The position numbers and the translations under genes are program-made. A DNA stretch of 38,288 nt from Actinomycetes bacterium (GTDB lineage Bacteria; Actinomycetota; Acidimicrobiia; Acidimicrobiales; SZUA-35): the NCBI GenBank assembly GCA_024280015.1, contig JAJRQY010000116.1, positions 1 through 38,288 of the forward strand. The letters are read 5' to 3'. The notes under the pieces are model-generated. The model did no database searches and was not told the DNA's origin. It saw nothing but the letters and a program-made list of their open reading frames with translations. Below are positions 7,357-12,180 of the stretch, piece by piece. How positions within the stretch are numbered: position 1 is the stretch's first letter; each line of letters begins with the position of its first letter.

Positions 7357-9165
7357 TTATTCTGACCTAACCGCGGCCGCTGCTTGCCCGGCATGGTGGC
7401 TGGATCTGGTCAGTGGGCTCGATTCGACATGACCAAGGCCAAGTTCGCCTTCGCCGATCTGTTTCAGCTCAGCGAACTCCTCCGGAGTCCACCAGCGAGC
7501 GACCGGCAGATGATGGGTGGTTGGCCGCAGATATTGCCCAATGGTGACAATGTCAACGCCGATAGCGGCGAGGTCAGTCATGGTGGCGACCACCTCATCA
7601 AATCTTTCACCCATGCCGACAATGAGCCCAGACTTGGTTGTCATTCCCGCCTGCTTGGATCGAGACAGAACGGTAAGGCTACGGGCATAGCTGGCAGAGG
7701 GGCGAACGGCTCGCTGAAGGCGGGGCACAGTCTCGGTGTTGTGATTAAGCACATCGGGCTTGGCTTCAAGTACGACCCGAAGACTGTCTGTATTTCCCCG
7801 CAGATCGGAAATGAGTACTTCAATACCGGAATCAGGACTGGAGTCGCGAATGGCGGCAATCGTGTCGGCCACAATTTGCGCTCCCCCGTCGTCCAGATCA
7901 TCACGAGCCACCATGGTGAGAACAACGAAGTCGAGACCAAGTTCGAGAACCGCATCGGCGATCCGTTGGGGCTCTTCAAGGTCAACCGCTCCCGGCTTGT
8001 TGGTGTCAACCAGGCAGAACCCACAAGCACGAGTACAACGCTCACCTAACAACATGAAGGTCGCCGTTCCTTCATTCCAGCATTCGAAGATGTTCGGGCA
8101 TCCGGCTTCTTCGCACACCGTGGTCAGGTTGAGTTCGCGGGAGGTTTTCTGCAACCGTCGATACGAAGCATCGGTCTTGAGCTTGACTCGCATCCACTCA
8201 GGTTTGCGACTGCTGAGGTCAAGCCCACCGGAAACGCCAGCGTCAGCCAGGCGGCCGCGAAGCCGAACGGGAACACCGGCCGCCGGGTCTTGCTTGGCCA
8301 TCTGATCCTTGCCAGTTGTTGGGTCCTGCGCAGCTACTGAGCCACTCGCAGCTGGAGACAATGACCGTTCAGGTTTGATTGCTTCGCCTGGTCCCTCGCC
8401 ACGGGAGAACGCAGACAGGTCCAAAGAAGAGTGCCGCCAGGCAACATCTTGACGATCGATGCTTCCGTCCCGACTCAACAGATCCGCCGCATGCTTGACT
8501 ACCAGGTCCGCTACTTCTTCCATGGAGGCATCGATGCCTTCTTGTTGAAGCGACGTGACCCCCTTGTCGGTGATTCCACACGGGACCATGTGCTTGAACC
8601 AGTCCATGTCGACGTTCACATTGAGCGCAAAACCGTGCATGGACCGGCCCCTGGAGAGGCGGACTCCGATAGCGGCGATCTTTCTTGGATTGTCTGCGTC
8701 GGCATCAAGCCAAACGCCGGGCTCCTTGTGGAGCCGGGTTGCCTCCAGGCCAAGGTCGGCCAAAGTATTGATCACAACTTGTTCGACCGAGGTGACATAG
8801 GAAACCGTGTCGGCCATTCCGCCGCCGCGTCGGCCCGGGACGTTCATGATGGGATAGCCCACCAGCTGACCGGGACCATGGAAGGTAACGTCGCCGCCTC
8901 GGTTGGCCTGATGAAGCTCGGCTCCGATGTCCGTCGGGTCAATGAGCAGATGCTGAGCCTTGGCTCGAACTCCCATGGTGTAGACCGGTGGATGTTCTAA
9001 CAGAAGCAAGTGATCATCTGTCCCAGCAAACAGTTGTTGCTGGAGGTCCAATGCCTCGGCGTAGGGCACGCGACCAAGCCAGCGGGCCCGCAAGGGTGTG
9101 CCCGGCAATGGCCCGCGGTGGCGGTTGGTCGCTAAGGGCCGACTTGTCGTTTCAGCCAGAGTCAC
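7357..9165 (-). CDS. LipB-LipA fusion: octanoyltransferase plus lipoyl synthase
   Basis: One uninterrupted 602-residue frame with two complete lipoate-assembly enzymes. Residues 1-~255 are LipB, which moves octanoate from acyl carrier protein to the lipoyl-domain lysine. They carry RGGDVTFHGPGQ (89-100), the catalytic lysine K162 (RKIAAIG) and the catalytic cysteine C196 (VPCGITDKG). Residues ~320-602 are radical-SAM LipA, which inserts two sulfurs. They carry the auxiliary-cluster cysteines C351, C356 and C362, the radical-SAM motif C377xxxC381xxC384 and the C-terminal RSSHHA serine-ligand motif (587-592). A ~65-residue Ala/Pro/Gly-rich linker joins them. The two enzymes are usually separate genes. 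GTG 9165 lies 11 bp after the E2 stop, so the fusion is likely translated with its own substrate protein. An internal ATG at 8301 could also yield LipA alone. Confidence 0.95.
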   Translation of the reverse strand: MTLAETTSRPLATNRHRGPLPGTPLRARWLGRVPYAEALDLQQQLFAGTDDHLLLLEHPPVYTMGVRAKAQHLLIDPTDIGAELHQANRGGDVTFHGPGQLVGYPIMNVPGRRGGGMADTVSYVTSVEQVVINTLADLGLEATRLHKEPGVWLDADADNPRKIAAIGVRLSRGRSMHGFALNVNVDMDWFKHMVPCGITDKGVTSLQQEGIDASMEEVADLVVKHAADLLSRDGSIDRQDVAWRHSSLDLSAFSRGEGPGEAIKPERSLSPAASGSVAAQDPTTGKDQMAKQDPAAGVPVRLRGRLADAGVSGGLDLSSRKPEWMRVKLKTDASYRRLQKTSRELNLTTVCEEAGCPNIFECWNEGTATFMLLGERCTRACGFCLVDTNKPGAVDLEEPQRIADAVLELGLDFVVLTMVARDDLDDGGAQIVADTIAAIRDSSPDSGIEVLISDLRGNTDSLRVVLEAKPDVLNHNTETVPRLQRAVRPSASYARSLTVLSRSKQAGMTTKSGLIVGMGERFDEVVATMTDLAAIGVDIVTIGQYLRPTTHHLPVARWWTPEEFAELKQIGEGELGLGHVESSPLTRSSHHAGQAAAAVRSE

Positions 9166-9176
9166 GGCTTACCTAT

Positions 9177-10655
9177 CTAGATGAGTTCGGAAGTCCAGTC
9201 CCGAGTCTCGATGATTTCACGGACCCGGGCCAGGAATGCGGCAGCGTATGCACCATCGATTGCTCGATGGTCCCAAGCCATGGCCAGGACACCGACGGAG
9301 TGGATTCCAATGCTCTCATTGCCGAAGGAGTCCTCGATGACCACCGGCTTGCGTTTCACTGCATCGGTGGACAAGATGGCAACCTGCGGCTGATTGATGA
9401 TCGGGAACTGCATCATCGTTCCGTAGCTACCGGCGTTGGTCAACGTGAATGTCCCACCGCTCAGCTCATCAGGCGACAGCTGCTTGGACCGAGCCCGGCG
9501 GGCGACATCAGAAATCTCTCGGGCAATCATCCGCATACGCTTGCCATCAATATCTTTGACCACGGGAGCCAGGAGACCCTGGAAGTCAAGATCAACGGCA
9601 ACAGCCATATTCACATAGTTGTGAACAATCAGCTCACCGTCTCCAATGGAGGCATTGAGGTGCGGGTATTCGCGCAGCGCATCGACCACGGCCCGGGTGA
9701 TGAACGGAAGATACGTGAGGCTGAAGCCTTCTTGTTCCTTGAACGATGCTCCGTTAGCCTTTCGGACCTGTTCAACGCCTTCGTAGTCGATCTCAATTGC
9801 AGTCAGGGTGTGAGGTGCCACCGACTTGGACATGACCATGTGCTCGCCGGTACGCAGTCGGATGTTGGAGAGCGGTACAACGGTGTCTCGGGTGCCGACC
9901 GGCACAGCGGGTGCCGCCGGAGGTGCCGCAATAGGCGCAGCGACCGGAGGAGTCGGTGGCGCTGGAGCAGGCGCAGGTGCAGGTGCTGGAGCAGGTGCAG
10001 GTGCTGGAGCAGCTGAGGCAGGGGTCTCCGCGGCAGCCGATGGTGCCAGCTGATTCGATTCGATATAGCGCTGAACATCATCCCGGCTGACCCGACCGCC
10101 AAGTCCTGTTCCCTGGATCTGATCGACATCAATCGAGTACTCATTCACCAGACGCCGCACGACAGGAGAGAGCACCTTGCTGGCGGTCGATGATGCTGGC
10201 CCAGCGCTTGCCGAAGCCGGAGGAGCAGGAACCTCGGCCGCGACCGGAGCAGGTGCTGGCGGTGGTGGCGCAGCAGGGGCAGGTGCAGGCGCAGGAGCTG
10301 GTGGCGCAGCAGGGGCAGGTGCAGGCGCAGGAGCTGGTGGCGCAGCAGGAGCCTCCACTACTGGTGTGGGCTCGGGAGCAGGGACCTCAGCAGGGGCCGG
10401 AGCTTCTGGAGCGGCACCAGCACCATCGCCGACCCGGGCCAAGACTGTTCCGACATCGACGGTTTCGCCTTCAGGCACCAGGATCTCGCTGATGGTCCCG
10501 GCCACCGGAGAAGGAACCTCGGTATCGACCTTGTCGGTTGAGACCTCGAAGAGAACCTCATCAACAGCGATCGACTCGCCGACTTCCTTAAACCAGCGGG
10601 TAATTGTTCCCTCGGTTACGGTCTCGCCCAGCTGGGGCATTTCAATCTCGGCCAC
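9177..10655 (-). CDS. Dihydrolipoamide acyltransferase (E2), DlaT/SucB type
   Basis: A 492-residue E2 core of a 2-oxo acid dehydrogenase complex. It carries the acyl group from E1 on its lipoyl arm and passes it to CoA. A single lipoyl domain (1-78) has lipoyl-lysine K42 in STDKVDTE. Two long Ala/Pro linkers flank the peripheral subunit-binding domain (about 165-205, VVRRLVNEYSIDV...GRVSRDDVQ). The catalytic domain ends in DHRAIDG with catalytic H463 and D467. In Actinobacteria this protein is annotated SucB but serves pyruvate dehydrogenase with AceE and Lpd; with aceE nearby that is my reading, though a 2-oxoglutarate role cannot be excluded. It starts at GTG 10655 with AGGAG 11 nt upstream. 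It lies between lpd and the LipB-LipA fusion on the same strand. Confidence 0.93.
   Translation of the reverse strand: MAEIEMPQLGETVTEGTITRWFKEVGESIAVDEVLFEVSTDKVDTEVPSPVAGTISEILVPEGETVDVGTVLARVGDGAGAAPEAPAPAEVPAPEPTPVVEAPAAPPAPAPAPAPAAPPAPAPAPAPAAPPPPAPAPVAAEVPAPPASASAGPASSTASKVLSPVVRRLVNEYSIDVDQIQGTGLGGRVSRDDVQRYIESNQLAPSAAAETPASAAPAPAPAPAPAPAPAPAPPTPPVAAPIAAPPAAPAVPVGTRDTVVPLSNIRLRTGEHMVMSKSVAPHTLTAIEIDYEGVEQVRKANGASFKEQEGFSLTYLPFITRAVVDALREYPHLNASIGDGELIVHNYVNMAVAVDLDFQGLLAPVVKDIDGKRMRMIAREISDVARRARSKQLSPDELSGGTFTLTNAGSYGTMMQFPIINQPQVAILSTDAVKRKPVVIEDSFGNESIGIHSVGVLAMAWDHRAIDGAYAAAFLARVREIIETRDWTSELI
10264..10349. repeat. 36-bp tandem repeat in E2 linker
   Basis: Two identical 36-bp units (10264-10299 and 10300-10335) and a partial third encode an Ala/Pro-rich segment of 12 residues each in the first interdomain linker of E2. 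A second low-complexity Ala/Pro stretch lies at about 9959-10020 in the linker after the subunit-binding domain. Confidence 0.85.
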
Positions 10656-10764: not shown

Positions 10765-12171
10765 CTATCCATGGAGAGATCGCCCGGTTAGGGCCATGAC
10801 ACTCTCGCCAAAGAGCTCACTAATTGTCGGGTGCGGCTGAATGAACTGGGCTACTTCGGAGGCAGTGGCCTCCCAGTTGACGGCCAGATATCCCTGGCCG
10901 AGCTGCTCGGTGACCCATGGGCCAACAAGATGAACACCGAGAATGACACCGCCAGTTCCATCGGCTTGCTTCTCGGCAACAATCTTGACCAGGCCATCAG
11001 TTTCACCAACAATCATGGCTCTGGAGTTTCCGGAATAGCGGTGTTTGGACACAATGACGTCATAACCGGCGTCCTTGGCTTCTTGTTCCGTCAGCCCAGC
11101 GAAGGCGACCTCGGGCTGACAGTAGATACACCATGGCAGCTTGTCGTATGCGATTGGAACCGGGTCCTCACCAAGAATATCGGTGATCGCGACAATGGCT
11201 TCCATGAAACCGGCGTGAGCCAGCTGCGCCGTGTCGATGACGTCGCCAATCGCCCAGACTCCCGCAACATTGGTTCGACAGTTCTGGTCTGCACCGATGA
11301 AGCCACGCTCATCAACCGCCACCTGAGTGTTGGCCAAGCCAAGAGTCTCAGAGAAGGGCCGGCGACCGATGGAAACCACCACGGTGTCCGCAGTAACTTG
11401 CTCGTCCTCACCAAAGGACACGGTGACACCGTCAGGACCGGTGGTCTGGCCACTGACCATAACTCCGTCACGAATCTTGATTCCACGTTTCTTGAAATTA
11501 CGTTCGACAACCTTGATCAGATCTCGATCACAGTTGATGAGGATGCTTGGCGCAGCTTCCAAGATGGTCACGTCGGTGCCAAGGTCGGCCATCATTGACG
11601 CGAACTCAACCCCAATTGCGCCGCCACCGATGACGATTGCCGATTTCGGCAACTCGGGGATGGAGAGCATTTCGTCTGAGGTCACAATTTGCTGGGAATC
11701 GATAGGGAAGCCAGGAATGGTACGTGGAACAGACCCGGCAGCCAGGATGATTGAGTCTCCGGTGATTGTCTGCTCACCCGATGAGCCTCCAGCCACGATG
11801 ACGGACCGGTGGTCTGGGCTCAGGGTGCCGGTGCCATCAACAATGGTCACCTTGCGATTTTTCAGAAGCCCGGTGACACCACCAACGAGCTTGTCAATGA
11901 TTCCTTGCTTGCGATCCATGGTGACGGACCAATCAATGCCTTGCGCCTCGGCCAGGACACCAAACTCTCCGGCATGGTTGATGACCCGTTGAATTGCCGC
12001 TGTCTCCAGAAGCTCTTTAGCCGGGATACATCCGACATTGAGGCACGTTCCGCCCAGCTTGTGTCGTTCCACTAGCGCAATATTGAGACCGGCAGATGCG
12101 CCATAGAGTGCGGCGCCATAGCCAGCCGGCCCGCCACCAATAATGACCACATCGAAATGCTGGTTGGTCAA
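10765..12171 (-). CDS. lpdA: Dihydrolipoyl dehydrogenase (E3)
   Basis: A flavoprotein disulfide reductase that reoxidises dihydrolipoyl-E2 using FAD and NAD+. The FAD-binding motif is VVIIGGGPAGYGAALYGA. The redox disulfide is GGTCLNVGCIPAKE (CxxxxC, with Ala where Ser is usual). The NAD-binding motif is AIVIGGGAIGVEFASMMADLG and the C-terminal catalytic motif is HPTISE. The frame extends to GTG 12180, but a GGAGG directly abuts that GTG and sits an ideal 8 nt before TTG 12171, so I choose TTG (468 residues, start MTNQHFDVVIIGG). Downstream on the same strand are E2 (109 bp gap) and LipB-LipA. Confidence 0.93.
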   Translation of the reverse strand: MTNQHFDVVIIGGGPAGYGAALYGASAGLNIALVERHKLGGTCLNVGCIPAKELLETAAIQRVINHAGEFGVLAEAQGIDWSVTMDRKQGIIDKLVGGVTGLLKNRKVTIVDGTGTLSPDHRSVIVAGGSSGEQTITGDSIILAAGSVPRTIPGFPIDSQQIVTSDEMLSIPELPKSAIVIGGGAIGVEFASMMADLGTDVTILEAAPSILINCDRDLIKVVERNFKKRGIKIRDGVMVSGQTTGPDGVTVSFGEDEQVTADTVVVSIGRRPFSETLGLANTQVAVDERGFIGADQNCRTNVAGVWAIGDVIDTAQLAHAGFMEAIVAITDILGEDPVPIAYDKLPWCIYCQPEVAFAGLTEQEAKDAGYDVIVSKHRYSGNSRAMIVGETDGLVKIVAEKQADGTGGVILGVHLVGPWVTEQLGQGYLAVNWEATASEVAQFIQPHPTISELFGESVMALTGRSLHG

Positions 12172-12180
12172 AAGAACCAC

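Follow-up and report, generated by a model that had tools for sequence, protein, structure and literature searches.

LipB and LipA act in turn on the same protein-bound lysine. In lipB-lipA operons, such as lipBA of Shewanella in the available text of PMC4398509, the same two genes are found in the same order, but as separate genes. The function of the Cys/Lys dyad of LipB has been described (PMC9307952, in the part accessible), as has the C-terminal RSSY motif of LipA, whose Ser is a ligand of the auxiliary cluster (PMC12246082, in the part accessible). A 2023 survey of lipoate assembly (PMC10332631) reports fusions among lipoate ligases, and its available text does not mention LipB fused to LipA. 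No description of a natural LipB-LipA fusion was found in the accessible portions of the open-access literature, including PMC10332631, PMC3904984, PMC3917532 and PMC12246082, and likewise PMC6067878, PMC4398509, PMC9307952 and PMC12405494. Whether LipB and LipA meet is not stated in the portions of the literature examined.

The stretch of DNA analysed here (the window, 38,288 nucleotides) carries both enzymes in one gene, with the following parts:

7357-9165, minus strand: fused LipB-LipA gene, a single open frame of 602 codons (602 aa), identified with Pfam and NCBIfam
8440-9096, minus strand: LipB (octanoyl-ACP:protein octanoyltransferase) half, residues ~24-242, with K162 and C196, aligned to M. 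tuberculosis LipB 1w66
8212-8439, minus strand: linker, residues ~243-318, differing in length among relatives, with partly conserved ends (DLxxFSRG, PVRLxGRL)
7360-8211, minus strand: LipA (radical-SAM lipoyl synthase) half, residues 319-602, with CX4CX5C, CX3CX2C and RSSH, aligned to M. tuberculosis LipA 5exi

The initial annotation had placed LipB and LipA in one open reading frame at 7357-9165. Both domains were borne out by Pfam and NCBIfam matches above the cut-offs and the coordinates were right, while the strand, absent from that annotation, is the minus strand. The gene begins with a GTG (9165-9163), with AGGT lying 5' of it, and its stop codon is at 7359-7357. Three Pfam matches were obtained in the protein, all above cut-off: LplA-B_cat (34-225), LIAS_N (319-356) and Radical_SAM (373-531). 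The NCBIfam model TIGR00214 (lipB) scored 169.5 bits against a cut-off of 83.55, PRK14345 scored 190.1 against 155, and in the same protein TIGR00510 (lipA) scored 340.1 bits against 310.25.

The distribution of the fusion was followed by profile searches on stop-to-stop frames of fetched loci, so that the frame check covers the fetched loci; the class label Acidimicrobiia for the sampled genomes rests on named relatives. Within the window's order and closer groups, 58 of 61 genomes, its own among them, gave a match, as did 141 of the 148 genomes in the class sample. Three of the seven class genomes that lacked any match are at least 95% complete. Among the first 168 loci, 121 held both domains in one frame, 23 had them in separate frames, 23 had LipA only and one had neither; some genomes were entered twice, and the 121 fused loci correspond to 109 distinct sequences, the window's own included. 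Twenty further regions were added afterwards, mostly from families not sampled before. Of the 52 class families for which a locus was fetched, 51 have the fusion; the locus of the remaining one (f51) begins at the first base of its contig. Families f11 and f55 gave no match, and for f15, which is outside these 52 families, both halves were reported in one open frame of 944 aa. Among the fused members are Desertimonas flava, a cultured isolate (L063), one Candidatus Microthrix and numerous assemblies named Acidimicrobiales or Acidimicrobiia. No split version of the fusion was seen among the class loci checked.

In the other classes of the phylum, none of 20 genomes (12 families checked) was fused. 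Thirteen of these 20 regions had been picked for long LipA frames, as the likeliest sites of a missed fusion, and the remaining ones for whole-length matches with internal stops or for good scores. The long LipA frames in other Actinomycetota, which run up to 853 aa without a stop, were considered as further fusions, and none was fused. In 15 of the 20 regions a LipB match was found in a separate open frame, and in five no LipB match was present in the fetched stretch. A cross-phylum look with six peptides of the window protein covered 80 of 403 relatives and gave 54 fused loci, eight with separate genes and 18 with LipA alone, one of which (L089) is cut at a contig end; this look could miss a distant independent fusion. 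Three records whose titles name other groups have the fusion at 56-57% identity: L061 and L076, titled Bifidobacterium breve, and L059, titled Acidobacteria. All three are probably mislabelled bins; in the trees described below L059 falls among class members, while L061 and L076 are outside the rows of these trees.

The window belongs to a genome of 175 contigs, and breaks are present in three other loci (L081, L082, L087), within the LipA half, which might suggest that the fusion arose from a stop codon or frameshift missed in the metagenome assembly. Against this, the same fusion occurs in 121 of 168 loci, an isolate genome and single-contig genomes among them. Because the fusion is conserved across the class, an artefact is refuted, and we give it practically no chance. 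The initial annotation had named two observations that would speak against a fusion, a frameshift or stop in the linker and close relatives with two separate genes. The frame proved to be open at the same place in independent assemblies, among them the isolate D. flava and the single-contig genomes G042 (L147) and G062 (L120), and two separate genes were seen, in the loci checked, only outside the class.

Trees of each half were built with 43 chosen fusions, omitting L086 and unfused LipB matches below 180 bits. On the 89-row LipA tree, three changes of the label "fused" are required as first labelled, and one when no label is given to L087, which has a frameshift inside LipA, and to L089, which lies at a contig edge; the branch uniting all fusions has an SH-aLRT value of 76. 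The LipB tree (63 rows) needs one change, with a branch support of only 65. The simplest reading of these sequence trees would be a single origin of the fusion, although the branch that decides this is weakly supported. As to its spread, a question that the initial annotation had left open, the fusion is class-wide in the families sampled, with one apparent origin. Across a class of soil and water bacteria, the two enzymes that build lipoic acid on its carrier protein seem to be produced as a single double enzyme.

In non-fused Actinomycetota lipB and lipA are often found side by side (e.g. L149, L151, L152, L157, L163), and because separate genes so often adjoin there, loss of the stop codon between neighbours would suffice to make the fusion. 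This is also the ground for a more modest account, in which a single merger joined neighbouring lipB and lipA and the halves act as independent enzymes linked by a floppy tether, with equal amounts of both, or nothing at all, as the benefit. It departs from the explanation as a bifunctional enzyme only by denying docking and hand-off. We regard such mere co-expression as quite possible, if not favoured; the linker and the models discussed below bear on it, and the lack of a split version among the class loci checked speaks against it.

The catalytic residues were examined in an alignment of 89 fusions, made up of the window and 88 of 100 candidate rows, 12 having been dropped to shorten it. 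Before alignment, L001 and L003 were set aside as being the window itself, and L033, L037 and L042 as duplicating genes of other loci. Repeats were removed as well, along with L017, which is cut, the broken or cut loci L081, L082, L084 and L087, and L143, whose LipB is split. The residue numbers given earlier for K162, C196, C351/C356/C362, C377/C381/C384 and RSS (587-589) hold. K162 and C196 lie within the RKIAAIGV and VPCGI blocks aligned to LipB 1w66. The catalytic Lys and Cys, the six Fe-S cysteines and R-S-S are invariant in 89/89 aligned fusions, and the CX4CX5C and CX3CX2C cluster motifs are kept in all of them.

The position that follows R-S-S in the LipA half is variable, with H in 30 of the aligned fusions (window included), Y in 58 and F in one (L148). 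In the window, residue 590 (7396-7398, minus strand) is H, and the RSSY of LipA reads RSSH; this residue stands directly after the RSS that contains the auxiliary-cluster Ser. Of the other 29 RSSH rows, 23 are coded to the family of the window, five are named records and one is the Candidatus Microthrix (L070). All 49 LipA frames that do not also include LipB read RSSY, four of them being cut or frameshifted class members.

The linker could also be the source of a second product, since the window contains a putative start within it:

8299-8301, minus strand: ATG codon in frame at linker residue 289, preceded by AAGGA; in this genome a candidate internal start, which relatives do not conserve

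Starting there (8301-8299, with AAGGA just upstream), or by cleavage, free LipA might be made beside the full-length fusion, and some ATG, GTG or TTG with an SD-like stretch is present in the linker of 31 of 108 distinct fusions. However, such sites are not commoner in linkers, where the frequency of start plus SD per codon is 0.0049, than in the LipB (0.0056) or LipA (0.0056) domains, and an ATG with SD occurs in the linker of only 3/108 distinct fusions. Two products are improbable on these figures. A conserved internal start was also considered and rejected, as start-plus-SD sites show no enrichment in linkers.

A single bifunctional polypeptide would carry out the whole synthesis of the lipoyl cofactor on its protein. 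In the first step, the LipB half would move the octanoyl group from octanoyl-ACP onto C196, with K162 as dyad partner, and then to the lipoyl lysine of E2 or GcvH. In the second, the LipA half would insert two sulfurs at C6 and C8 by radical SAM chemistry, at the expense of its auxiliary [4Fe-4S] cluster. Both chemical steps are those we infer from knowledge of the families. That both activities reside in one polypeptide is held to be very likely, and that it is a bifunctional enzyme with some physical coupling, hand-off left aside, is considered likely.

AlphaFold2 predictions were obtained for two distant fusions. The window protein, with the 89 fusions as alignment, gave a mean pLDDT of 90.8 and a pTM of 0.91; L131, a fusion 44% identical to the window with a different linker, gave 91.9 and 0.91. 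The halves of the model match solved structures (LipA Z 41.8, LipB Z 30.2). A pTM of 0.91 fits docked halves; it is no proof of docking by itself. For domains of ~220 and ~285 residues, such a value would in our judgement be hard to reach without a confident relative placement, and it lies above what we expect of floppy domains, which argues against the account by co-expression. From the models, the LipB and LipA halves may dock in a fixed orientation, and we hold a stable docking to be somewhat more likely than not.

The match to M. tuberculosis LipA (5exk_E, residues 5-305) begins at model residue 246, so part of the "linker" may be the N-terminal extension of LipA. In the 89 aligned fusions the ends of the linker are partly conserved and its middle is not. 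The gap between the two profile matches ranges from 30 to 109 aa, with one outlier of 285 that has a split LipB match. In this outlier, L143 (G178:C138), a low-complexity Gly/Ala/Pro insertion in the LipB half is followed by a long repetitive linker. A gap that varies so widely does not argue for a precise tether. Co-variation between the halves was looked for by APC-corrected mutual information in the 89 sequences, a number that leaves the analysis underpowered: pairs between the halves made up 12 of the top 50, 31 of the top 100 and 97 of the top 300, with 45% expected, that is, no enrichment and fewer than expectation. Both the varying linker and the lack of detected co-variation would suit halves that are only co-expressed; at a depth of 89 sequences, the mutual information neither supports nor refutes an interface.

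As to hand-off, a kinetically useful transfer between the halves is possible, although we are inclined to doubt it, and it is speculative that the octanoylated domain reaches the second site without leaving. The evidence that bears on the direct hand-off of octanoylated E2 suggested in the initial annotation is indirect, namely the confident models and the neighbouring E2 gene, and the co-variation analysis lent it no support. A two-site machine, with LipB and LipA face to face and the octanoylated lipoyl domain swinging unreleased to the radical-SAM site, is rather unlikely. If true, such a machine would be a fixture of an entire bacterial class and would hold in place a meeting of LipB and LipA that is only passing in other organisms.

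The genes upstream of the fusion offer a candidate substrate for the bifunctional enzyme:

9177-10655, minus strand: E2 acyltransferase of a 2-oxoacid dehydrogenase, whose single lipoyl domain has the motif STDKVD; best NCBIfam match TIGR02927 SucB_Actino, 398.9 bits, below the cut-off of 423.45
10765-12180, minus strand: dihydrolipoyl dehydrogenase (E3), upstream of E2; TIGR01350, 478.6 bits against a cut-off of 408.8

The stop codon of E2 lies 11 bases before the start of the fusion, and the adjacent E2 is a likely substrate. Long Pro/Ala repeats lie between the domains of this E2 (9177-10655), where open frames on the opposite strand are probably not genes. An E2 match that ends within ~300 bases of the fusion was found in 42 of 56 loci and an E3 match in 41 of 56. 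The 14 loci without an E2 match comprise five cut upstream by a contig end, two that are not Acidimicrobiia and seven without E2 in the stretch (L052-L055, L073, L075, L087). In L052, L053, L054, L073, L075 and L087 the match immediately before the fusion is to E3, and there is none to E2. The E2 match is merely 29-34% identical in L078, L080, L083 and L088.

The own genome (96.6% complete) contains one LipA match. The LipB/LplA catalytic family is matched twice, by the fusion and by a 258-aa LplA-like frame; neither a second LipA nor a second full LipB was found in the genome, although at this completeness a second copy may have escaped. Because the genome holds one LipA and one full LipB match, the fusion is probably its only de novo route of lipoylation, as judged from gene content. 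The 258-aa frame (L002, 1333-2106) reached only 19.4 bits to its one NCBIfam match and is possibly a salvage ligase or an unrelated acyltransferase; a frame near it is one that we take to be MraZ-like. The genome encodes at least three probable lipoyl proteins: the E2 of the window, GcvH, and a protein whose 464-aa open frame includes an ESDK motif. The remaining five Biotin_lipoyl matches carry an AMKM motif, which is presumably that of biotin.

Such a natural fusion, spread over a class, provides LipB and LipA in one construct for measuring the hand-off from the first to the second, and is a candidate for solving both enzymes structurally together with their carrier. It is also a possible marker gene for Acidimicrobiia. 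Automatic rules of UniProt can label such proteins as multifunctional fusions, and automatic pipelines may name them after one half only. All of 60 fusions match the NCBIfam LipB and LipA models, and in the one member for which positions were obtained each model covers one half; a model of the LipB-LipA fusion was not among the NCBIfam matches of the window or of the 60 fusions.

Both enzymes and the order of their action are textbook knowledge; the chemistry is the expected one, and it is the fusion itself for which an earlier description was not found in the accessible literature. Compared with stand-alone LipB (TIGR00214; M. tuberculosis 1w66, E. coli LipB), the window's LipB shares the fold, the Cys/Lys dyad, the RGG loop and the expected octanoyl transfer, but forms the N-terminal half of a larger protein. 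With stand-alone LipA (TIGR00510; M. tuberculosis 5exi, human LIAS), the window's LipA has in common the CX4CX5C auxiliary and CX3CX2C radical-SAM cluster motifs and the C-terminal RSS, while it forms the C-terminal half of a fusion and has H as the fourth residue of RSSY. Another fused arrangement is NF053790, LplA_LipA_fuse (bifunctional lipoate--protein ligase/lipoyl synthase). Membership of the window protein in this family was rejected, with 341.3 bits against a cut-off of 800 and a best stretch (318-594) in the LipA half only. In NF053790, by name and description, an attachment enzyme likewise stands ahead of LipA, and the LipA half aligns; the difference, going by the name, lies in the N-terminal half, which is an LplA ligase there and LipB in the window.
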